From contig CANMWQ010000006.1 of assembly GCA_947501685.1 (NCBI GenBank), positions 1-64,000 of the forward strand: DNA of 64,000 nucleotides, read 5' to 3'. The DNA comes from an uncultured Litoreibacter sp. (GTDB lineage: Bacteria; Pseudomonadota; Alphaproteobacteria; Rhodobacterales; Rhodobacteraceae). The notes under the pieces were generated by a model. That model was not told the origin of the DNA, did no database searches, and was given only the letters and a program-made list of their open reading frames with translations. Below, piece after piece: positions 19,563 through 40,730 of this stretch (position 1 is its first letter; every line of letters starts with the position of its first letter). The translations under genes and the position numbers were made by a program.

Positions 19563-19596
19563 GCGCGATTTTCTAGGGATTGACGAAGCGCGCGGA

Positions 19597-19606
19597 TGTG
19601 ATCACG
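19597..19606. promoter_or_regulatory. Single TGTGATCACG palindromic site before the GntR gene
   Basis: TGTGATCACG differs by one base from the perfect palindrome TGTGATCACA found in pairs upstream of sucC and sdhC. It sits in the 52-bp gap after the YgjP gene and ends 8 bases before the ATG of the GntR gene, overlapping where a ribosome site or start-proximal operator would be. GntR-type proteins favour GT-N-AC palindromes, so autoregulation is plausible. Confidence 0.5.
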
Positions 19607-19614
19607 TTCGGGCT

Positions 19615-20280
19615 ATGTTGATCCAATCTCGCAGCTCTGATGCCACGGGTTCTGCTCCAACCGGGGCGGCCAATGACATGGTCTACCGTCGCCTGCGCAG
19701 CCAGATCATGCATGGGGAGGTGAAACCCGGTCTCGCCATGACCCTGCGCGGCATCGGCAAGGAGTTCGGCGTCTCCATGACTCCCGCCCGCGAGGCGGTG
19801 CGGCGGTTGGTGGCTGAAGGGGCGTTGTCGCTGTCCTCCTCCGGACGGGTCTCAACGCCTGAGCTGTCCAATGACCGCATCGAGGAGCTGGCCGCGATCC
19901 GCGCCTTGCTGGAACCTGAGCTGGCAGCACGGGCTTTGCCGCGGGCGCATTTGGCGTTGATTGACCGGCTGCAATCCATCAACGCGACGATTGGCCAAGT
20001 GATCGAACGGCATGATGCGCCGGGCTATATTCGGGCCAATCTGGAGTTCCACCGTACGCTTTATCTGCGCGCGCAGGCCCCCGCGATGCTGGCGATGGCG
20101 GAGACCGTTTGGCTCCAGCTTGGACCCACGATGTGTGACCTTTATGGCCGGCTCAACCGCACCACCCCGCCGCAGCATCACCGCTTGATCGTGGCCGCCT
20201 TGAAAGCGGGCGACGAGCCCGGTCTGCGTGTGGCCGTCCGGGCTGATGTGACCCAAGGCTTGCGGATGCTGGCCACGTAA
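19615..20280 (+). CDS. GntR-family transcriptional regulator with FCD domain
   Basis: The 221-residue protein has an N-terminal GntR winged helix (VYRRLRSQIMHGEVKPG, GKEFGVSMTPAREAVRRL, EGALSL) and a C-terminal all-helical FCD effector domain (AAIRALLEPELAARAL, ANLEFHRTLYLRA, PPQHHRLIVAALKAGD) with His residues suited to metal or carboxylate binding. I start it at ATG 19615; the longer frame overlaps the upstream gene. FCD regulators respond to organic acids or sugar acids. It is convergent with lpd at the edge of the TCA gene block and carries a site-like palindrome at its own start, so it is a candidate TCA regulator. That link is inference. Confidence 0.9.
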   Translation: MLIQSRSSDATGSAPTGAANDMVYRRLRSQIMHGEVKPGLAMTLRGIGKEFGVSMTPAREAVRRLVAEGALSLSSSGRVSTPELSNDRIEELAAIRALLEPELAARALPRAHLALIDRLQSINATIGQVIERHDAPGYIRANLEFHRTLYLRAQAPAMLAMAETVWLQLGPTMCDLYGRLNRTTPPQHHRLIVAALKAGDEPGLRVAVRADVTQGLRMLAT

Positions 20281-22607: not shown

Positions 22608-24134
22608 TTACAAATCCATCAGCAACCGACGTGGATCCTCAAGCGCCTCTTTCACGCGGACCAAGAACGTCACCGCTCCTTTGCCGTCCACGATGCGGTG
22701 GTCGTAGCTGAGCGCCAGATACATCATCGGGCGGATGATGACCTCGCCACCAATCGCCATCGGGCGGTCCTGGATTTTGTGCATGCCGAGGATGCCGGAT
22801 TGGGGCGGGTTCAGGATGGGAGAGCTCATCAGCGAGCCGTAGACGCCGCCGTTGGAGATGGTGAAGCTGCCGCCTTGCATTTCGGCCATGCTCAGTTTGC
22901 CGTCGCGGGCCTTGGCACCTTTTTCGGCGATGGCTTTCTCGATCTCCGCGAAGCTCATGGAATCCGCGTCGCGGATCACGGGGACGACCAGCCCTGTGGG
23001 GGTGCCGGCGGCGATGCCCATGTGGACGTAGTTCTTGTAGACCACGTCGGTGCCGTCGATCTCCGCATTGACCTCGGGGACCTCTTTGAGGGCATGGACG
23101 CAGGCCTTGGTGAAGAAGGACATGAAGCCCAGCTTGACGCCGTGTTTCTTCAGAAACAGGTCTTTGTACTCGCTGCGCAGGTCCATGACCGCTCCCATGT
23201 CCACCTCGTTATAGGTGGTCAGCATGGCGGCGGTGTTCTGGCTGTCTTTCAGACGGCGTGCGATGGTCTGGCGCAGGCGGGTCATTTTCACCCGTTCCTC
23301 GCGGGAGGCGTCGTCGGATGAGACCGGTGCGCGTGGTTTTTGCGCGGCTGGGGCAGGGGCTGCTGATTGCGGGGTGGCCAGCGCTTTTTGCACGTCTTCC
23401 TTCATGATGCGCCCGTCTTTGCCGGTGCCGGTGACATCGCTTGCGGAGAGGCCTTTCTCGGCCATCATCTTGTTGGCAGACGGCGCGTTTTCGACGTCCT
23501 TGCCGGAGGTTGCAGGCGCCGGGCTTGCTGCCGTCGCGGGTGCAGAGGCCACCGCGCCGCCGCCGGAGGTCATGGTGGCCAGCTTGCCGCCTGCCTCGAC
23601 CGTGTCGCCTTCGGCGGCCAGCACGTCTTGCAGCACGCCGGAGGCGGGTGCGGGCACCTCGACGGAGACCTTGTCGGTTTCCAGCTCGCAGAGCATCTCA
23701 TCCGCCTGCACGTTTTCGCCGGGCTTTTTGAACCATGTGGAGACCGTGGCTTCCGTGACGCTTTCGCCCAAGGTTGGCACCATGATGTCGACGGTTTCAC
23801 CTTTGATGGGCTGGGCTTCCGGGGTGTGCTCGGAGACGGGGTCTTCCTTGGCGGCTGGGGCCGCTTTTGGTGCTTCGGCCTTCGGTGCGGGGGCGCTGTC
23901 GCCTTCCGCGACCTGCGCCAGCAAAGCGTCGACGCCAACGGTTGCGCCTTCCTCGGCCACGATTTCGCTTAGGGTGCCTGCCACGGGGGAGGGCACCTCC
24001 ACGGTAACCTTGTCGGTTTCCAGCTCGCAGAGCATTTCGTCCACCGCGACGCTGTCGCCGGGCTTTTTGAACCATGTGGCGACGGTGGCTTCGGTCACGG
24101 ACTCACCGAGTGTGGGGACACGAATTTCGGTCAT
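22608..24134 (-). CDS. odhB: 2-oxoglutarate dehydrogenase E2, dihydrolipoyl succinyltransferase, with two lipoyl domains
   Basis: The 508-residue protein is longer than the ~400-residue enterobacterial SucB because the lipoyl domain is duplicated. The lipoyl lysines are Lys42 and Lys155, each in an ETDKV(T/S)VEVP context, joined by Ala/Pro-rich linkers. An E3-binding domain follows ([20 protein letters not shown]), then the catalytic domain ending in the active-site [11 protein letters not shown]. It transfers succinyl groups to CoA at the core of the complex. It lies 3 nt after sucA and is clearly cotranscribed with it. Confidence 0.97.
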
Positions 24135-24137
24135 GGG

Positions 24138-27107
24138 TTATTTCCCTTTCAGTGTGAGCGCATCGTTCACGAGTGCGGCTTGTTCTGCTTTATGTCTGCT
24201 GGCCAGCCCCGTCGCGGGGGAGGCGGAGGCGGCGCGGCCGGTGTAGTGAGGCCGTGTGTTTTTGGCGCCAATGCGGGTCAGGACCCATTCGATATTGGGC
24301 TCCATGAAGGTCCATGCGCCTTGGTTCTTGGGCTCTTCCTGGCACCAGACCATGTCGGCGTTGGGGAAGCGTTCCAGCTCTTTGACCGCTGATTGGGCGG
24401 GGAAGGGGTAGAACTGCTCGAACCGCATCAGGTAGACGTCATCGATGCCGCGCGCGTCGCGTTCTTCCAGCAGGTCGAAATAGACCTTGCCCGAGCACAT
24501 GACCACGCGTTTGATCTTGTCGTCTTTGACCAGTTTGGTGTCCGAATTGCCTTGCTGCGCGTCGTCCCACAGCACGCGGTGGAAGCTGGAGCCAATTTGG
24601 AACTCCTCTGCGCGGCTGACGGCCAGCTTGTGGCGCAGCAGGGATTTGGGCGTCATCAGCACGAGCGGCTTGCGGTAGTCGCGGTGGATCTGGCGGCGCA
24701 GGATGTGGAAATAGTTGGCCGGCGTGGTGCAATTGGCCACGATCCAGTTGTCGCCGCCGCACATTTGCAAAAAGCGTTCCAGCCGGGCGGAGGAGTGCTC
24801 CGGGCCTTGGCCCTCGAAGCCGTGGGGCAGCAGCATCACGAGGCCGGACATGCGCAGCCACTTGCTTTCGCCTGAGCTGATAAACTGGTCGAACATGATC
24901 TGCGCACCATTTGCGAAATCGCCGAATTGTGCCTCCCAGAGGACCAGCGCGTTGGGCTCGGCCAAGGAGTAGCCATATTCGAAGCCCAGCACCGCATATT
25001 CGGAGAGCATCGAGTCGATGACCTCATACTCGGCCTGCCCCTCGCGGATGTGGTTGAGCGGGTAATAGCGGTCTTCATTCTCTTGGTTGATCAGCCCGGA
25101 ATGGCGCTGCGAGAAGGTGCCGCGTGTGCTGTCCTGACCCGACAGGCGCACGGGGTAGCCTTCCGTGAGCAGGGAGCCGAAGGCCAAGGCCTCCCCGGTG
25201 GCCCAGTCGAAGCCCTCGCCGCTGTCAAACATCTTGGCTTTCGCGTCGAGCAGTCGCCCGACGGTTTTATGCAGCGGAAAGCCATCTGGCGCGTTGCTCA
25301 GCGACTTGCCGATATCGCTCATTGTTTCGGCAGAGATGGCGGTTTTGCCGCGCTGGTATTTGCCCTTCTCGCGGGCGTCGAGATGCGACCACTTCCCGTC
25401 GAGCCAGTCAGCCTTGTTGGGCTTGTAGTCTTTGCCCGCCTCAAACTCTTCGTTGAGATAGGACTGGAAGGAGGCTTTCATATCCTCGATCTCGCCCTCG
25501 GGTATCAGCCCGTCTTGGACCAGCCGTTCCGTATACAGCGTCAGCGTAGTCTTCTGGGTTTTAATCTTTTTGTACATGACCGGGTTGGTGAACATGGGCT
25601 CGTCGCCCTCGTTATGGCCAAAGCGGCGGTAGCAGATGATGTCGAGCACCACGTCTTTGTGGAATTTCTGGCGGAACTCGGTGGCGACCCGTGCGGCGTG
25701 CACCACGGCTTCGGGGTCGTCGCCGTTCACGTGGAAGATCGGGGCCTCCACCATCAGCGCAATATCCGTGGGGTAAGGGCTGGAACGCGAGAAGTGCGGG
25801 GCGGTGGTAAACCCGATCTGGTTGTTGACCACGATATGCATCGTGCCGCCGGTTTTGTGACCTTTGAGGCCGGAGAGGCCAAAGCCTTCGGCCACAACGC
25901 CCTGACCCGCAAAGGCCGCGTCGCCATGCAGCAAGATGGGCAGCACTTTCGTGCGGTCCACGTCGGATAATTGGTCCTGCTTGGCGCGGGCCTTGCCCAG
26001 AACCACCGGGTTCACGGCCTCTAGGTGGGAGGGGTTGGCGGTGAGGGAGAGGTGAACCTCGTTGCCGTCAAATTCCCGGTCCGAGGAGGCCCCGAGATGG
26101 TATTTCACATCGCCTGACCCGTCGACATCCTCAGGCTTGAAACTGCCGCCCTGGAATTCGTTGAAGATCGCCTTGTAAGGCTTTTGCATGACATTCGCGA
26201 GCACGCTGAGGCGGCCACGATGCGGCATGCCGATGATGATATCCTGCACCCCCAGCTGCCCGCCGCGTTTGATGATCTGCTCCATCGCGGGGATCAGGCT
26301 TTCTCCGCCATCAAGGCCAAACCGCTTGGTGCCCATATATTTGACATGCAGGAATTTCTCGAAACCCTCGGCTTCCACCAGCTTGTTGAGGATCGCCTTG
26401 CGCCCCTCTTTGGTGAAGGTGATTTCCTTGTCGTACCCTTCGATACGCTCTTTCAGCCAGCCCGCTTCTTCGGGGTCCGAGATGTGCATATATTGCAGGG
26501 CAAATGTGCCGCAATAGGTGCGTTTGAGAATGGCCACGATCTCGCGCATGGAGGCGGTTTCCAGCCCCAGCACGTGGTCGATAAAGATCGGGCGGTCCAT
26601 GTCTCCTTCGGTGAAGCCGTAAGAGGCAGGATCCAGCTCTGGGTGCTTCGTGTGCTCGCGCATATCGAGCGGGTCCAGATCGGCCGCCAGATGGCCCCGG
26701 ATGCGGTAGGCGCGGATGATCATGATGGCGCGGATGCTGTCGAGCACCGCGTGGCGGATCTGCTCCTCGGAGACCTCCACCTTCATCTCGGACGCCTTGC
26801 CCGCGATTTTCTGGGCAATGGCTTTGGTCTCGCTGGCAGGCGTGTCAGCGGGCCATTGGCCGTCCAGCGCTGCTGTCAGGTCATCTTGCGGAGCAGGCGG
26901 CCAGTCAGTGCGCGCCCAAGAGGGGCCAGCGGCCTCCGCCTGCGCCAGCTCCGTGTCGCCGAGGTCCTTGAAGAAGCTGCGCCACCCCTCGTCCACCGCA
27001 TTGGGGTCCTGGGCGTATCGGGCATAAAGCTGCTCCAGATACTCCGCGTTATGGCCCTGCATGAAGGAGGAGGCATGGAACTGGTCATTATTGGACTGGT
27101 CGGTCAT
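24138..27107 (-). CDS. sucA: 2-oxoglutarate dehydrogenase E1 component
   Basis: This 989-residue thiamin-diphosphate enzyme decarboxylates 2-oxoglutarate and succinylates E2. It has the N-terminal segment HASSFMQGHNAEYLEQLYAR typical of OdhA/SucA, the IIGMPHRGRLSVLANV and HLGASSDREF regions, the ThDP/Mg motif around LLHGDAAFAGQGVVAEGF ... VVNNQIGFTT, and the C-terminal RMSGLVMLLPHGFEGQGPEH transketolase-like part. Its ATG overlaps the stop of the DUF805 gene (ATGA), so initiation is coupled to it. It follows sucCD in the same minus-strand cluster, linking succinyl-CoA synthesis and use. Confidence 0.97.
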   Translation of the reverse strand: MTDQSNNDQFHASSFMQGHNAEYLEQLYARYAQDPNAVDEGWRSFFKDLGDTELAQAEAAGPSWARTDWPPAPQDDLTAALDGQWPADTPASETKAIAQKIAGKASEMKVEVSEEQIRHAVLDSIRAIMIIRAYRIRGHLAADLDPLDMREHTKHPELDPASYGFTEGDMDRPIFIDHVLGLETASMREIVAILKRTYCGTFALQYMHISDPEEAGWLKERIEGYDKEITFTKEGRKAILNKLVEAEGFEKFLHVKYMGTKRFGLDGGESLIPAMEQIIKRGGQLGVQDIIIGMPHRGRLSVLANVMQKPYKAIFNEFQGGSFKPEDVDGSGDVKYHLGASSDREFDGNEVHLSLTANPSHLEAVNPVVLGKARAKQDQLSDVDRTKVLPILLHGDAAFAGQGVVAEGFGLSGLKGHKTGGTMHIVVNNQIGFTTAPHFSRSSPYPTDIALMVEAPIFHVNGDDPEAVVHAARVATEFRQKFHKDVVLDIICYRRFGHNEGDEPMFTNPVMYKKIKTQKTTLTLYTERLVQDGLIPEGEIEDMKASFQSYLNEEFEAGKDYKPNKADWLDGKWSHLDAREKGKYQRGKTAISAETMSDIGKSLSNAPDGFPLHKTVGRLLDAKAKMFDSGEGFDWATGEALAFGSLLTEGYPVRLSGQDSTRGTFSQRHSGLINQENEDRYYPLNHIREGQAEYEVIDSMLSEYAVLGFEYGYSLAEPNALVLWEAQFGDFANGAQIMFDQFISSGESKWLRMSGLVMLLPHGFEGQGPEHSSARLERFLQMCGGDNWIVANCTTPANYFHILRRQIHRDYRKPLVLMTPKSLLRHKLAVSRAEEFQIGSSFHRVLWDDAQQGNSDTKLVKDDKIKRVVMCSGKVYFDLLEERDARGIDDVYLMRFEQFYPFPAQSAVKELERFPNADMVWCQEEPKNQGAWTFMEPNIEWVLTRIGAKNTRPHYTGRAASASPATGLASRHKAEQAALVNDALTLKGK

Positions 27108-27679
27108 TGTGGGACCTCATGAGGGTTGGGGCCGAAGCGGTTGGGGCCGGGGTCGGAAGGACGGGTGAGCCAGTAAGTATTCAGGATCAGCGTGCCCAAA
27201 AAGAGCACCGCGATAATTGCGGCAAGCCATCCGCTCACTGGGGCGGTTGCCTGACCTGTAGCCTGCAGTTGCTCAACGGTGTTAGCAGGTCCCAAACTCG
27301 ACAAAACCCCTGCGAGAATGAAAACAGACAAAGCCAGGTATGGGACAAAAGGCAACCAACCTGGTCTCCCGCTGTCATGCATGCGCCTCCACGTAACGGC
27401 GAGCCAAGGCAGAAGGGTGGCAAGGCCAAATAGATTGCCGACAATGCCGCTGCTATATCGGATCACCTGTCGGGGTTGGCCATTTGGATTGCCTTGAGCA
27501 TCAAGGGAAAGTTCGTACTCGATTTCAGGTCCGAACAGGACTGAATTGATGATCAGGCAGGCGATAATTCCCAAGAAGAGGAACAGAATGAACTTCCAGA
27601 ACTCAGGGCGAGTCGCGCGGCCAGAGAAGGTGAGGTACTTCTGAAACAGGCAGGTTCTTACGGCATTGATGAAAGTCAT
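27104..27679 (-). CDS. DUF805 membrane protein
   Basis: The 191-residue inner-membrane protein has the DUF805 signature FSGRATRPEFWKFILF near residue 20, followed by four membrane helices and the conserved WRRMHDSGRPGW loop; the C-terminus is Pro-rich. I start it at MTFINAVRTC (27679) because this is the usual family N-terminus. Its stop overlaps the sucA ATG by four bases, so it lies inside the TCA cluster and translation is coupled to sucA. Function is unknown. A dispersed GC hairpin lies between it and sucD and might separate transcripts. Confidence 0.85.
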   Translation of the reverse strand: MTFINAVRTCLFQKYLTFSGRATRPEFWKFILFLFLGIIACLIINSVLFGPEIEYELSLDAQGNPNGQPRQVIRYSSGIVGNLFGLATLLPWLAVTWRRMHDSGRPGWLPFVPYLALSVFILAGVLSSLGPANTVEQLQATGQATAPVSGWLAAIIAVLFLGTLILNTYWLTRPSDPGPNRFGPNPHEVPQ

Positions 27680-27759
27680 TCCGGACGCTCTCCGATCTTG
27701 AATGGCCACATCGCTGTTTCTTTGTCGTCGCCGTGAAAACGGGGACGCCGTTCAGGGTG

Positions 27760-27800
27760 CGTACCCGGTTTTGCGAGGTCCCCGCTTTCGCGGGGATGAC
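27760..27800. repeat. Dispersed GC hairpin repeat (SSPRKRG type) between sucD and DUF805
   Basis: TCCCCGC (27779-27785), loop TTTC and GCGGGGA (27790-27796) form a perfect 7-bp stem. Together with the flanking GTACCCGG...GCGAGG it corresponds to the very common dispersed repeat whose spurious translation reads SSPRKRGPR on the minus strand. It is not a gene. It may lower expression of the downstream DUF805-sucA part, but this is not shown. Confidence 0.7.
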
Positions 27801-27821
27801 AATGATATGGGCGGCGTGGGA

Positions 27822-28703
27822 TCACCCAATCGCCTCAAGCACCGCCTCGCCCAGCGTGGCGGGGCTGTCGGCGACGACGATCCCGGCGGAGCGCATGGCT
27901 TCGATCTTGCTTTCGGCGTCACCGACACCGCCCGCGACGATGGCACCGGCGTGGCCCATGCGGCGGCCCGGAGGGGCGGTGCGGCCTGCGATGAAACCGG
28001 CGGTGGGCTTCCAGCGGCCTTTCTTCTTTTCGTCGGCGAGGAATTGCGCGGCTTCCTCCTCGGCGGAGCCGCCGATCTCCCCGATCATGATGATCGACTG
28101 TGTCTCGTCATCGGCGAGGAACATCTCGAGCACGTCGATATGCTCCGTCCCTTTGATCGGGTCGCCGCCAATGCCCACGGCGGTGGACTGGCCGAGGCCG
28201 CTATCTGTCGTCTGCTTCACCGCCTCATAAGTCAGCGTGCCGGAGCGCGAGACCACGCCGACGGAGCCGCGCTTGTGAATGTGGCCGGGCATGATGCCGA
28301 TTTTGCATGCGTCGGGCGTGATCACACCGGGGCAGTTGGGGCCGATCAGAATGGACGATGACCCCTCCAGCGCGCGTTTCACCCGCATCATGTCGAGCAC
28401 CGGGATGCCTTCGGTGATGCAGCAGATGAAGGGGATCTCCGCGTCGAGCGCTTCAAGGATACTGTCTGCCGCGAAGGGCGGGGGCACGTAGATCACTGTG
28501 GCATCGGCACCGGTGCGCGCGACGGCCTCGTGGCAGCTGTCAAAGACCGGCAGGTTGAGATGGGTTTGCCCGCCCTTGCCCGGCGTCACGCCGCCGACCA
28601 TTTTGGTGCCATAGGCGATGGCCTGCTCGGAGTGGAACGTGCCTTGCGACCCGGTGAGGCCCTGGCAGATCACCTTGGTGTTTTCGTCGATGAGAATGGC
28701 CAT
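27822..28703 (-). CDS. sucD: Succinyl-CoA ligase, alpha subunit
   Basis: The 293-residue subunit begins [20 protein letters not shown], the canonical start, with ATG at 28703; a longer frame upstream is not needed. It has the CoA-binding Rossmann domain ([17 protein letters not shown]), [24 protein letters not shown] and the phosphohistidine loop [12 protein letters not shown]. It forms the succinyl-CoA/succinate plus NTP step with SucC. An 81-residue orf separates it from sucC, which is not the enterobacterial arrangement. Confidence 0.97.
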
Positions 28704-28716
28704 TCGTGTTGGCTCC

Positions 28717-28962
28717 TTAGGCGGTTGGGCTGAGCGGCGCGTTGATGTGGGGATCAACGGGCAGCGTCAGGGGATTGGTGATTTTACTGTTGGGCGAAAG
28801 CCCGGCTTTGGCGACGAGGGCGCCAGGGATTTCCGGGGTGAAGTCGTTGACGTGATCGGGGTTGCCGTCGCGCAGCTCAGCGTCACGGGCGTACTCCGCC
28901 ATCGGGCTGGCCTTTTCTGCGTCGCAGGCCGGGCGGGGGAGATATGTGAGTGTGTCGCTCAT
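28717..28962 (-). CDS. Small conserved-looking protein between sucC and sucD
   Basis: The 81-residue frame starts at ATG 28962 ([20 protein letters not shown]), with a GGGAGG Shine-Dalgarno-like run just upstream, and ends 13 nt before sucD. It is hydrophilic and Pro-rich, with one Cys and no membrane segment or signal. Sequence such as [20 protein letters not shown] and a C-terminal [14 protein letters not shown] look structured rather than random. I recognise no family. Its position in the middle of succinyl-CoA ligase suggests a companion or regulatory protein of that enzyme or operon, which is inference. Confidence 0.65.
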
Positions 28963-29040: not shown

Positions 29041-30234
29041 TCATCCCTTGACGGCTTTCACGATTTTCTGGGCCCCGTCTTTGAGGTCATCTGCGGCGAT
29101 GACGTCGACGTCGCTGTCGTTGATGATCTTCTTGCCCTCTTCGACATTGGTGCCTTCAAGGCGGACAACCAATGGCACTTTCAGGCCGACTTCTTTGACC
29201 GCTGAGACCACGCCTTCGGCGATGACGTCGCAGCGCATGATTCCGCCGAAGATGTTGACGAGGATACCTTTGACGTTCGGGTCAGAGGTGATGATCTTGA
29301 AGGCCTCGGTCACTTTCTCCTTGGTCGCGCCGCCGCCCACGTCGAGGAAGTTGGCGGGTTCTGCGCCGTAAAGCTTGATGATGTCCATCGTGGCCATGGC
29401 CAGACCTGCGCCGTTGACCATGCAGCCGATCTCGCCATCCAGTGCGATGTAGTTGAGGTCATATTTGGAGGCGGCGAGTTCCTTGGGGTCTTCCTCCGTC
29501 TCGTCGCGCAGCTGGGCGATGTCGGCGTGGCGGTAGATTGCGTTGCCGTCAAACCCCATTTTGGCGTCGAGGCATTTCAGATCGCCGCTGTCGGACACGA
29601 TCAGCGGGTTGATCTCCAGCATCTCCATGTCTTTTTCGAGGAACAGCTTGTAGAGCGTGCCCATCAAGGCGACGCATTGCTTGACCTGCTGGCCTTTGAG
29701 GCCCAGCGAGAAGGCGATGCGGCGGCCGTGATAGGGCTGGTAGCCTGTGGCCGGATCAACGGAGAAGCTGAGGATTTTCTCGGGCGTGTCTTCGGCGACC
29801 TGCTCGATATCCATGCCGCCTTCGGTGGAAGAGACAAAGCTGACGCGGCTGGTCTGGCGGTCGACGAGCAGGGCGAGGTAGAGCTCGGTTTCGATGCCGG
29901 AGCCGTCTTCGATATAGATGCGGTTGACCTGCTTGCCCGCGGGGCCGGTCTGATGAGTGACCAATGTGCGGCCCAGCATCTTTTTGGCCTCATTGGCCGC
30001 TTCCTGCACGGATTTGGCAAGGCGCACGCCGCCTGCTTCGCCTGCATCGGCTTCTTTGAACGAGCCTTTGCCGCGTCCGCCTGCGTGGATTTGTGCTTTG
30101 ACGACCCAAAGCGGGCCATCAAGTTCACCGGCGGCGGTTTTGGCGTCTTCGGCGCGGGTGACAACTCGGCCATCGGAGACCGGGGCACCGTAGCTGCGCA
30201 ACAGGCCTTTTGCCTGATACTCGTGGATGTTCAA
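29041..30234 (-). CDS. sucC: Succinyl-CoA ligase, beta subunit
   Basis: The 397-residue subunit begins [16 protein letters not shown], standard for SucC. It has the ATP-grasp region ([17 protein letters not shown]) and the C-terminal ligase domain with [17 protein letters not shown] and [14 protein letters not shown]. It supplies nucleotide binding and specificity for the SucCD complex. It is the first gene of the sucC-orf81-sucD cluster. The 240-bp gap upstream holds the mdh terminator and, 97-129 bp before the ATG, the composite TTGTGATCAC-N13-GTGATCACAA element, so it probably has its own promoter. Confidence 0.97.
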
Positions 30235-30330
30235 AGTTACTCTCCTTAGATGCGCTGTTGGGCGTGATTTGACATGGGGACGTGCCGCGAGAAAAGGAGT
30301 TTATGACCCGGACAGGGAAAAATCCGACAT

Positions 30331-30363
30331 TTGTGATCACAGTAAGAAAATGTGTGATCACAA
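30331..30363. promoter_or_regulatory. Tandem TGTGATCACA operator upstream of sucC
   Basis: Two perfect 10-bp palindromes TGTGATCACA (30332-30341 and 30353-30362) are 21 bp apart centre to centre, two helical turns. Overall the element reads TTGTGATCAC-N13-GTGATCACAA. The same composite with the same 13-bp spacer occurs at 36581-36613 upstream of sdhC. It lies between the mdh terminator and sucC, where the sucC promoter must be. Confidence 0.72.
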
Positions 30364-30420
30364 AAATTCAGAGCGGATGCGAATCTTTAAAAATCGTTAT
30401 GATTTTGCGGGTTTTTTGAC

Positions 30421-30450
30421 GAAAAAGGGCCCCGCAATACGGAGCCCTTT
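30421..30450 (-). terminator. Rho-independent terminator after mdh
   Basis: On the minus strand AAAGGGCTCC (30450-30441), loop GTATTGC and GGGGCCCTTT (30433-30424) form a 10-bp stem with one G-U pair. The right arm runs on into two more T residues (30423-30422), making five T in all. It starts 24 bases after the mdh stop and separates mdh from the sucC promoter. Confidence 0.85.
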
Positions 30451-30474
30451 GGGAGTGATTGTGGAGGCCGAGAT

Positions 30475-35893: not shown

Positions 35894-36586
35894 ATGCGCT
35901 GGACCTGTCCTCTCTTCCTCTCTGCCTGCCTGTCGTTTTCAGGCCCAGTGGCGGCGTGCGACATTGCGTTGATCCTTGCGGTGGACGTGTCGGGTTCCGT
36001 GGATCAGAACGAGTATGACATTCAAATGCAGGGCCTTGCGGAGGCGTTGCGGGACGGCGCGATTTCCGAGGCTTTGGTGGTGCGCGAGGCGGCGGTGCAG
36101 GTGATCCAATGGACCGGGTCGGGGCGGCACCGGGTGTCTGTGCCGTGGACGCGGATCAAGGATTTCAACGACACCGACACTCTGGCCGATGTGATCGAGG
36201 CCGATCCGCGTATCTGGCGCAATTTCTCGACCGCTTTGGGGGAGGCCGTGCAGTTTGCGCAAGGCAATTTCAAGCAGGTCCCGGATTGCACGCGCAAGGT
36301 GATCGACGTCTCTGGCGACGGGCGCTCGAATGAGGGGATCCGCCCGCCTGCGCTGCATGCCTCGCTCTTGGCGGATGGGATTATCGTCAACGGTCTGGCG
36401 ATTGAGGCCTATGACAAGGGGTTGACGGAGTATTTCGAAAAACATCTGATCGTGGGTCCGGGGGCCTTTGCGATGCGGGCGGCGGAGTTCGAGGATTACC
36501 CAGAGCGGATCCGGCGCAAGCTGCTGCGCGAGATCACGAAACAGCTCTCCGAGGCGGAGGTGCCGCGCAAGAATGGCAATTTGTGA
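35894..36586 (+). CDS. DUF1194 exported von Willebrand A-like protein
   Basis: The 230-residue protein has a signal peptide (cleavage after PVAA, before CDIALI, or a lipobox-like variant) and a VWA fold with the MIDAS motif DVSGSVD near residue 30. Further strands carry KVIDVSGDGRSNEG and IIVNGLAIE, which is the DUF1194 family pattern. The frame begins at a TTG two codons before ATG 35894; I prefer the ATG. Its stop codon (36584-36586) lies inside the first half-site of the sdh operator. Function is unknown; it may bind metal and a protein partner in the periplasm. Confidence 0.87.
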   Translation: MRWTCPLFLSACLSFSGPVAACDIALILAVDVSGSVDQNEYDIQMQGLAEALRDGAISEALVVREAAVQVIQWTGSGRHRVSVPWTRIKDFNDTDTLADVIEADPRIWRNFSTALGEAVQFAQGNFKQVPDCTRKVIDVSGDGRSNEGIRPPALHASLLADGIIVNGLAIEAYDKGLTEYFEKHLIVGPGAFAMRAAEFEDYPERIRRKLLREITKQLSEAEVPRKNGNL

Positions 36587-36613
36587 TCACGACGCAAAAA
36601 GCAGTGATCACAA
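36581..36613. promoter_or_regulatory. Tandem GTGATCAC operator upstream of sdhC
   Basis: TTGTGATCAC (36581-36590) and GTGATCACAA (36604-36613) are separated by 13 bases, exactly as upstream of sucC (30331-30363). The left palindrome is TGTGATCACG and the right AGTGATCACA, each one base off perfect. The left half-site overlaps the DUF1194 stop. The element sits 127-159 bp before the sdhC ATG, in the only intergenic space before the sdh operon. Confidence 0.72.
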
Positions 36614-36739
36614 ACTTGAGAAATTAGTCAAAATCTAGCGACAATTGCGCGCAAATAGACCTCCGGGCGCGTGACTCTGCTGTGAAAACGTCTAGAGTTC
36701 GTGACAGTAATTACCGCAGCCAGCACGAAGGACGCGCTC

Positions 36740-37123
36740 ATGGCAGACGTCAACCGGGGGGACCGGCCGCTTTCCCCCCATCTTACCATCTACCGGCCAC
36801 AGCTGACCTCCATGACCTCGATCCTGACGCGGATCACCGGAAACGCACTTCTTGTGGCCGCAATCTTGATTGTGTGGTGGTTTCTGGCGGCCAGCTACGG
36901 GCCTGAGTATTTCGCCACCGCCGACGCCGTACTGACCTCGTGGTTTGGCGATCTGGTGTTGTTCCTGTCGCTTTGGGCCGTGTGGTATCATTTCTGTGCG
37001 GGCATCCGGCATCTGATCTGGGACAGCGGCCATGGCTTCGAGCTGGAGACCGCGGAAAAGCTGGGCTACGCCGTGATCGCGGGCTCGCTGCTGCTGACCA
37101 TTTTCACCGTTATCGTGATTTGA
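36740..37123 (+). CDS. sdhC: Succinate dehydrogenase cytochrome b556 subunit
   Basis: The 127-residue subunit has the SdhC signature RPLSPHLTIYRPQLTSMTSI, then three membrane helices with WYHFCAGIRHLIWD containing the haem-ligand histidine. ATG 36740 has AAGGA nearby; upstream codons are poor. It anchors SdhAB to the membrane and passes electrons to quinone. It is the first gene of sdhCDA-B and lies 153 bp after the DUF1194 gene, behind the GTGATCAC element. Confidence 0.95.
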   Translation: MADVNRGDRPLSPHLTIYRPQLTSMTSILTRITGNALLVAAILIVWWFLAASYGPEYFATADAVLTSWFGDLVLFLSLWAVWYHFCAGIRHLIWDSGHGFELETAEKLGYAVIAGSLLLTIFTVIVI

Positions 37124-37521: not shown

Positions 37522-39330
37522 ATGGCTGCTGAATACGAATATGAAACCCATGAATATGATGTCGTCGTTGTTGGCGCTGGCGGCGCGGGGTTGCGCGCCA
37601 CGCTTGGTATGGCCGAACAGGGCTTGCGCACGGCTTGCGTGACCAAAGTGTTCCCCACGCGCTCTCACACGGTTGCTGCACAGGGTGGCATTGCTGCGTC
37701 GCTCTCCAATATGGGGCCCGACAATTGGCAGTGGCATATGTATGACACGGTCAAGGGCTCCGACTGGCTGGGCGATACGGATGCGATGGAATATCTGGCG
37801 CGCGAAGCCCCCAAAGCGGTCTACGAGCTGGAGCATTACGGTGTGCCGTTCTCGCGCACCGAAGAGGGCAAGATTTACCAACGGCCGTTCGGTGGCCACA
37901 CAACCGAATTTGGCGAAGGCCCCCCGGTGCAGCGCACCTGTGCCGCCGCCGACCGGACGGGCCACGCGATTTTGCACACGCTTTACGGTCAATCGCTGAA
38001 GCAAAAAGCCGAATTCTACATCGAGTATTTCGCGATCGACCTGATCATGTCCGATGACGGGGTGTGTCAGGGTGTTTTGTGCTGGAAGCTGGATGACGGC
38101 ACGTTGCATTTGTTCTCCGCCAAAATGGTGGTGCTGGCGACGGGCGGCTATGGCCGCGCCTATTTCTCTGCGACCAGCGCGCATACCTGCACCGGTGACG
38201 GTGGCGGCATGGTCGCGCGGGCGGGCCTGCCTTTGCAGGACATGGAGTTCGTGCAATTCCACCCCACCGGCATTTACGGCGCGGGGTGTCTGATCACCGA
38301 AGGCGCGCGTGGGGAGGGGGGGTATCTGACCAACTCCGAAGGCGAGCGTTTCATGGAACGCTATGCGCCGACCTACAAGGATCTGGCGTCGCGCGACGTG
38401 GTCTCGCGCTGCATGACGATGGAGATCCGCGAAGGGCGCGGCGTGGGTGAGGCGGGAGATCATATCCACCTGCATCTCAACCATCTGCCGCCTGAAACGC
38501 TGGCGCTGCGGCTGCCGGGCATCTCCGAGTCAGCGCGGATTTTTGCGGGCGTGGATCTGACGAAAGAGCCGATCCCGGTGCTGCCGACGGTGCATTACAA
38601 CATGGGCGGGATTCCAACGAATTACTGGGGTGAGGTCCTGTCTCCGACCAAGGACGACCCTGACCGTGTGTCGCCCGGCCTGATGGCCGTGGGGGAGGCG
38701 GGCTGTGCGTCTGTTCATGGGGCCAACCGGCTTGGGTCGAACTCGCTAATTGACCTCGTGGTCTTTGGCCGTGCGGCGGCCATTCGCGCGGCGAAAGTGG
38801 TTGACCCGGAGGCGCCAAACCCCGGCATCAACAAGATGTCGCTGCAACGCGCTTTGGACCGGTTCGACGGGCTGCGCTACGCCAAAGGCCAAGTGCCAAC
38901 GGCTGAGCTGCGCATGGAAATGCAGACCACGATGCAAAGCGACGCGGCGGTGTTCCGCACGGACAAGACGCTGGCCGAAGGTGTTGAGAAGATGGACAAT
39001 GTGGCGTCCAAGCTCGACGATTTGGAGGTGTCGGATCGCAGCCTTGTCTGGAACTCCGACTTGATGGAGACGCTGGAGCTGGCCAATTTGATGCCAAACG
39101 CCGTGGCGACGGTTGTGTCGGCTGAGGCCCGTAAGGAAAGCCGTGGCGCGCATGCGCATGAGGATTATCCCGACCGCGACGACAAGAACTGGCGCAAACA
39201 CTCGCTGACCTATTTCAAGGGGCAGAAGGCCAAGCTGGACTATCGTGGCGTGCATCTGGAACCGCTGACCTCGCATAATGAGGGCGGCATTGATCTCAAG
39301 AAAATCGCGCCAAAAGCGCGAGTCTATTGA
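37522..39330 (+). CDS. sdhA: Succinate dehydrogenase flavoprotein subunit
   Basis: The 602-residue subunit has the FAD dinucleotide motif [11 protein letters not shown], the covalent FAD histidine in [12 protein letters not shown] (His49), [12 protein letters not shown], the substrate loop HPTGIYGAG, the catalytic region [17 protein letters not shown] and [10 protein letters not shown]. It oxidises succinate to fumarate. It is 15 nt after sdhD. Two small lipoprotein genes, rather than sdhB, follow it; the first overlaps its stop codon. Confidence 0.97.
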
Positions 39331-39950: not shown

Positions 39951-40730
39951 ATGGTTCAACTGACCCTGCCCAAGAATTCCCGCATCACCGTGGGCAAGAC
40001 CTGGCCCAAGCCCGAGGGCGCCAACAATGTGCGCAAATTCCAGATTTACCGCTGGAACCCCGACGACGGCAAAACGCCTCAGGTGGATACGTATTTTGTC
40101 GACATGGACAAATGCGGGCCGATGGTGCTGGACGCGTTGATCAAGATCAAGAACGAGATCGACCCGACGCTGACCTTCCGCCGCTCTTGCCGCGAAGGGA
40201 TTTGCGGATCCTGTGCGATGAATATCGACGGCATTAACACGCTGGCTTGCATTTACGGCATGGACGAGATCAAGGGCGACGTGAAGATTTACCCGCTGCC
40301 GCATATGCCGGTGGTCAAGGATTTGATCCCTGATTTGACGCATTTTTATGCCCAGCATGCCTCCATCATGCCGTGGCTTGAGACCACGACCAACCGCCCC
40401 CAGAAGGAGTGGCGGCAATCGGTGGAGGATCGCGAAAAGCTGGATGGGCTCTATGAATGCGTGATGTGCGCGTGTTGCTCGACCTCATGCCCGAGCTATT
40501 GGTGGAACGGTGACAAATACCTTGGGCCCGCGGCGTTGCTGCATGCGTATCGCTGGATCATTGACAGCCGCGACGAGTCCACGGGCGTGCGTCTGGACGA
40601 TCTGGAAGACCCGTTCAAGCTGTACCGCTGCCACACGATCATGAACTGCACCAAGACCTGCCCTAAAGGTCTGAACCCGGCCAAGGCCATTGGCGCGATC
40701 AAGAAGATGATGGTTGAGCGGACGGTGTAG
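39951..40730 (+). CDS. sdhB: Succinate dehydrogenase iron-sulfur subunit
   Basis: The 259-residue subunit carries the [2Fe-2S] motif [15 protein letters not shown] with further Cys in LACIYG, and the [4Fe-4S]/[3Fe-4S] cysteines in [16 protein letters not shown] and [21 protein letters not shown] lies 9 bases before the ATG. It transfers electrons from FAD to the membrane anchor. It directly abuts the convergent membrane-protein gene with no space, so transcription from sdh must stop inside or beyond that gene. Confidence 0.97.

Follow-up and report, generated by a model that had tools for sequence, protein, structure and literature searches.

A conserved pair of palindromes upstream of sucC and sdhC as the probable operator of an AkgR-type GntR regulator in Rhodobacteraceae

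Why do two perfect copies of one palindrome stand 21 bp apart in front of sucC in an uncultured Litoreibacter, and which protein would read them? The sequence analysed here (the window) is a stretch of 64,000 nucleotides, for which the first-pass annotation had proposed two perfect palindromes before sucC, the same composite before sdhC and, as the consequence, a dedicated regulator of the TCA cycle operons. Read directly, positions 30331-30363 are TTGTGATCAC-AGTAAGAAAATGT-GTGATCACAA, and the perfect TGTGATCACA palindromes are confirmed at 30332-30341 and 30353-30362, with centres 21 bp apart, 99 bases upstream of the TTG start of sucC. At sdhC the identical spacing is found for the pair of 8-mers, GTGATCAC, but the 10-mers there are TGTGATCACG and AGTGATCACA and are not both perfect, so that only the 8-mer version of the composite is common to the two operons. 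The upstream end of the sdhC operator overlaps with the stop codon of a DUF1194 gene. The two operators and the genes that follow them are:

30331-30363: sucC composite operator, GTGATCAC at 30333-30340 and 30354-30361 with N13 between; conserved.
36581-36613: sdhC composite operator, GTGATCAC at 36583-36590 and 36604-36611 with N13 between; conserved.
29041-30234, minus strand: sucC, succinyl-CoA synthetase beta subunit, TTG start; NCBIfam equivalog above cut-off.
22608-28757, minus strand: sucD, a DUF805 gene, sucA and sucB, downstream of sucC on the same strand; co-transcription assumed.
36740-37123, plus strand: sdhC; Pfam Sdh_cyt, NCBIfam succ_dehyd_cytB.
37522-39330 and 39951-40730, after sdhC: sdhA and sdhB, respectively, named from sequence.

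The exact arrangement GTGATCAC-N13-GTGATCAC occurs only at 30333-30361 and 36583-36611 in the whole genome of 3,322,244 bases; the other genomic matches, nine among those listed, carry two mismatches each. When up to three mismatches were allowed, the window gave four matches against 0.22 expected from shuffled sequences, and the sucC and sdhC copies were the only exact ones. The single 8-mer is found eight times in the window: in the two pairs, once before a GntR gene, and at three other positions (21945, 28318 and 62504) that fall within, or at the beginning of, the coding sequences for a MAPEG protein, sucD and a GFA-family protein, respectively. These single sites in coding sequence are the one observation that fits a chance pair of palindromes, a reading to which we give practically no credence, as it is refuted by the shuffles, by the genome and family searches and by the recurrence of the pair at these two promoters in relatives. 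The earlier argument that the pairs are not accidental is thus borne out, with both exact copies at TCA operons.

The perfect 10-mer has a distribution of its own. Besides the sucC pair, nine exact copies of TGTGATCACA were found, all in contig C2 of G000 between 87093 and 310800 (224 kb; L245-L253) and each within an open frame; malic-enzyme-like and ParB-like frames are among these. This compares with 0.24 expected in that stretch, and with none in 160 kb of contig C1; TGTGATCACAGACGG is common to three of the nine sites. An origin- or terminus-type role of the 10-mer was considered for this cluster and dropped, there being no such cluster among the sites listed for 12 relatives.

Conservation of the pair was assessed in a family set of 149 genomes, one per genus and including the genome under study. 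At least one exact pair is present in 126 of these, while the pattern read backwards, used as a control, gave no match in any of the 149; with spacings from N3 to N33 allowed, at least 133 genomes match. Among 289 genomes sampled across the class, the pair is found in three of the four family members versus 2 of 285 others. The position relative to genes is equally consistent: in 40 loci fetched from relatives, every pair found lies 97-192 bases upstream of a gene start, that of sucC or sdhC and in one case sucA, and the 85 distinct exact pairs (195 sequences) comprise 47 before sucC, 36 before sdhC, one before sucA and one unassigned. After removal of duplicates and of matches below 60% (sucC) or 40% (sdhC) identity, the pair was seen in 75 of 87 sucC upstream regions (69 exact with N13, five exact with N12, one with N13 and one mismatch) and in 59 of 61 sdhC upstream regions (52 exact with N13, five exact with N12, two with mismatches), rates that are biased by the partial selection of regions for a known pair or regulator, as are the count of 85 pairs and the phasing and own-promoter sets described below. 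Checked in the genome and in its relatives, the motif is thus neither scattered nor unconserved before sucC and sdhC, the two outcomes that had been named as speaking against an operator. A Rhodobacter sphaeroides-like genome, G051, carries the pair exactly twice, 107 bases upstream of sucC and 143 bases upstream of sdhC.

Pairs with other spacings or outside the family were also recorded. Those fetched with N10, N16 and N19 lie inside open frames (L290-L294). Two pairs with N23, that is 31 bp or three turns from centre to centre, are located away from TCA genes (L276:1543-1581 in G136, L277:1513-1551 in G042); the first is intergenic and upstream of a TauE-like permease gene, and the second could be assigned to no gene, like a third exact pair of G042 (L036/L278). 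Outside the family, the pair of G295 (L279:992-1020) is exact, intergenic and next to a gene with a 28% match to the regulator discussed below, and that of G350 is within open frames.

Placing the pair relative to RNA polymerase depends on the promoters. A simple sigma-70 consensus scan found none for either sucC or the GntR gene, and ranking positions by a weighted sigma-70 score led to no consistent promoter location and frequently picked out the operator itself. The following putative promoters come from comparison with relatives:

30267-30295, minus strand: putative sucC promoter, -35 at about 30295-30290 and -10 at about 30272-30267; position weight matrix of relatives, significant at offset -10.
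36671-36698, plus strand: putative sdhC promoter, -35 GTGACT at 36671-36676 and -10 at about 36693-36698; GTGAC position in relatives.

The element GTGAC, taken as the -35, lies 57-60 bases past the pair in 42 of the 59 sdhC regions (59 in the window); in the others it is at 48-49 (three regions), 70 (two), 80 (one) or 115 (one), or is absent (ten). Over the same 59 regions, the sdhC start codon is anywhere between 107 and 191 bases past the pair. Most relatives have the pair about 47 nt (sucC) and about 58 nt (sdhC) upstream of the inferred -35, and the inferred sucC promoter of the window is one turn nearer to it. Promoter profiles were built from the regions that share the most frequent distance (for sdhC, chosen by GTGAC position) and applied in a leave-one-out manner. 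The sucC profile was significant in 51 of 75 regions, at offsets -1 to +1 in 39, -10 or -11 in eight (including the window) and +21 in four; the sdhC profile was significant in 34 of 59, at -1 to +2 in 29 and at -9, +11, +11, +21 and -52 in one each. Because the central class arises partly by construction, the actual test is provided by the displaced promoters, which are few and related. Of the periods tried, 10.5 bp gives them the highest vector strength (sucC 0.97, sdhC 0.96), with a period of 8 also fitting the sucC set well (0.93 versus 0.97). The corresponding p-values, 0/20,000 and 0.0012, come from a null that assumes independence and samples a range narrower than the -52 case. A smaller run gave the same offset classes plus one promoter at +12. 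The regions without a significant promoter match (24 of 75 for sucC, 25 of 59 for sdhC) have scattered offsets. These comparisons suggest that promoter and pair keep a constant helical phase, the displaced significant matches being whole-turn shifts, an arrangement that looks new.

The gap between mdh and sucC contains a further element. At 30415-30470, on the mdh side, a stable hairpin is followed by a T run; it is terminator-like (folding z of -3.5) and parts mdh from the sucC promoter, although a terminator pattern scan of the gap listed none. Since this hairpin sits on the mdh side, the pair was not taken as an RNA element; an Rfam search of the window returned one tRNA and nothing else.

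A candidate protein is encoded 10 kb from the sucC pair in the same window, in a gene that adjoins lpd:

19615-20280, plus strand: GntR/FCD regulator, AkgR-type, 221 aa; Pfam GntR (PF00392, 1e-12) and FCD (PF07729, 1.8e-19), and family distribution.

Matches to this regulator at E 1e-30 are present in 136 of the 149 family genomes, including three (G019, G054 and G101) with paralog-level matches only. With these three treated as lacking the protein, the pair at any gap of 3-33 is found in 130 of the 133 protein-bearing genomes versus 3 of the other 16 (Fisher p 1.8e-13). Restricting the set to the 132 genomes that are at least 90% complete gives 118 of 119 versus 2 of 13, and the raw match list with N13 only gives 124 of 136 versus 2 of 13 (p 6.5e-9); the p-values overstate the association because the genomes are related. 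Exceptions are few on either side. The pair is present without a detected ortholog in G019, G096 and G114, all three represented among the 75 sucC regions with the pair, and the ortholog is present without the pair, by exact search, in G040, G122 and G147, the first of which has a pair with one mismatch. All 12 sucC regions lacking the pair are from genomes counted as without the protein; G109 retains a single near-site and G017 a pair with three mismatches. Nine highly complete genomes have sucC and neither the regulator nor the pair (G004, G014, G017, G029, G048, G059, G083, G102 and G109). Across the class, where 10 candidates per genome were scored, the protein at 76% identity or above is confined to the four family members among the 289 genomes, and the best match outside reaches 40%.

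Residues N142, H146, H189 and D211 of the regulator are constant in 118 aligned relatives. Among FCD-type GntR proteins, TM0439 has an Asp-His-His-His metal site, and Asn together with Asp would be unusual there; judged by spacing, the four residues may fall on this site, which would put Asn and Asp at two of its four positions.

The upstream region of the regulator gene contains one more copy of the motif:

19597-19606, plus strand: single site TGTGATCACG, between TTGACG (19580) and the GntR start codon (19615).

Exact GTGATCAC is located 17-20 bases past TTGAC in 64 of 153 distinct regulator upstream regions, the window included (at 18 bases in 55), and the exact single site is absent from 89; over the whole of the 110 bases that precede residue 19, the 8-mer is found in 68 of the 153 against 0.24 expected. 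The first in-frame ATG or GTG follows 34-36 bases past TTGAC in 57 of the 64 site-bearing regions. A 17-base spacer puts the start codon approximately at the transcription start, and the regulator message is therefore probably leaderless, with the single site overlapping the -10 region (19580-19617 in the window). Regions of Rhodobacter/Tabrizicola type, that of G051 among them (L289), are without the single site, and the 153 regions are tilted to this clade because the named loci were collected with the G051 protein. From this clade, to which the R. sphaeroides-like genome belongs, the own-promoter site has been lost.

What is known of related systems points to a named protein. We take RSP_0981 and AkgR of R. 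sphaeroides to be the same gene. Excerpts of a published study list sucCD, sdh and the 2-oxoglutarate dehydrogenase genes as predicted targets of RSP_0981, a GntR protein (PMC4344238), and, likewise in excerpt, GTGATCAC is published among AkgR site motifs and the R. sphaeroides protein is termed a 'transcriptional activator'. The window protein is the apparent ortholog of RSP_0981/AkgR, as judged from sequence comparison: it is 74% identical to the G051 protein encoded beside sdhB. The photosynthetic L chain of G051 has 1aig_L as its top match (281 of 281 residues aligned), on which basis we assume this genome to be R. sphaeroides; among named loci, a list that does not contain R. sphaeroides, the nearest to its regulator is that of Cereibacter ovatus (94%). 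G051 resembles the window in encoding the regulator and in having pairs before both sucC and sdhC, but its regulator gene is beside sdhB rather than lpd, and of the two only the window has the own-promoter site. The nearest solved relative of the regulator by sequence is McbR (YncC) of Escherichia coli (PDB 4p9f, E 2.7e-23), whose function is presumably not in the TCA cycle.

Could another transcription factor bind the pair, the GntR gene being merely a neighbour with a shared history? In many genomes the regulator gene is within about 20 kb of sucC or sdhC, so linkage alone could yield the co-occurrence, and the 14 matches to PF00392 in the genome under study show that other GntR genes exist. 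Moreover, PS417_07240, a GntR-type protein of the Pseudomonas simiae deoxyribonate cluster that is 32% identical to AkgR, is proposed to use the same GTGATCAC palindrome, which means that no single protein can claim the motif; the description there, however, is of one palindrome, at -47 to -40 from the start codon of the protein's own gene, and in another pathway. Against a different factor stand the assignment of GTGATCAC to AkgR, already in print, and the site at a fixed position in the promoter of the GntR gene itself. CceR (RSP_1663), the other named TCA regulator of R. sphaeroides, similarly controls central carbon genes and has sdh and mdh among its predicted targets, but it belongs to the LacI family and its motif, as given in excerpts of the same study, is GTT-N6-8-AAC (PMC4344238), by which we ruled it out as the binder. 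Overall, we regard binding by another factor as very improbable.

We are highly confident that the pair is the operator of the AkgR-type GntR protein, bound by two dimers for activation of sucC and sdhC, and that the single site serves self-repression; the sites, their conservation, spacing, positions and co-occurrence with the protein are observed, and binding by this protein and activation in this organism, the use of two dimers and self-repression are inferred. Two dimers would bind side by side at a distance of 21 bp, or two turns of the helix. From about 70-100 bp before the inferred sucC and sdhC transcription starts, and on a fixed DNA face relative to RNA polymerase, they would activate the two TCA operons. 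In the regulator's own promoter, a single dimer would cover the -10 region and block polymerase, which makes the regulator most likely self-repressing. Two dimers on one face upstream of a promoter fit activation. The regulator might instead bind the pair and repress sucC and sdhC, through looping or exclusion of another activator; loops need helical phasing too, and at the regulator gene the site takes a repressor position, overlapping the promoter. We consider this rather unlikely, as the pair is well upstream of the inferred promoters (in most relatives some 47 and 58 nt from the -35), a usual place for an activator, and AkgR is named an activator in the published excerpts.

The dedicated TCA regulator anticipated for this locus is accordingly the best-supported reading, and that regulator, its targets and the 8-mer are already known; the detailed layout of the sites looks new. 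Searches of the literature, which excluded the primary AkgR paper of 2015, turned up neither the pair and its spacing nor the phasing or the site in the regulator's own promoter. We lean, with moderate confidence, towards a strict operator grammar for AkgR: for activation, two dimers two turns apart with a promoter on the same face that moves in evolution by whole turns only; for self-repression, one dimer on the -10 region of an apparently leaderless regulator gene, a loop that much of the family retains and that is absent from the R. sphaeroides-type clade, where AkgR has been investigated.

Within a large bacterial family from sea and soil, a conserved operator is now tied to a regulator that was already known, and the motif becomes a testable layout of spacing, helical phase and self-repression. 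The model species may lack a feedback loop that is present in many of its relatives.
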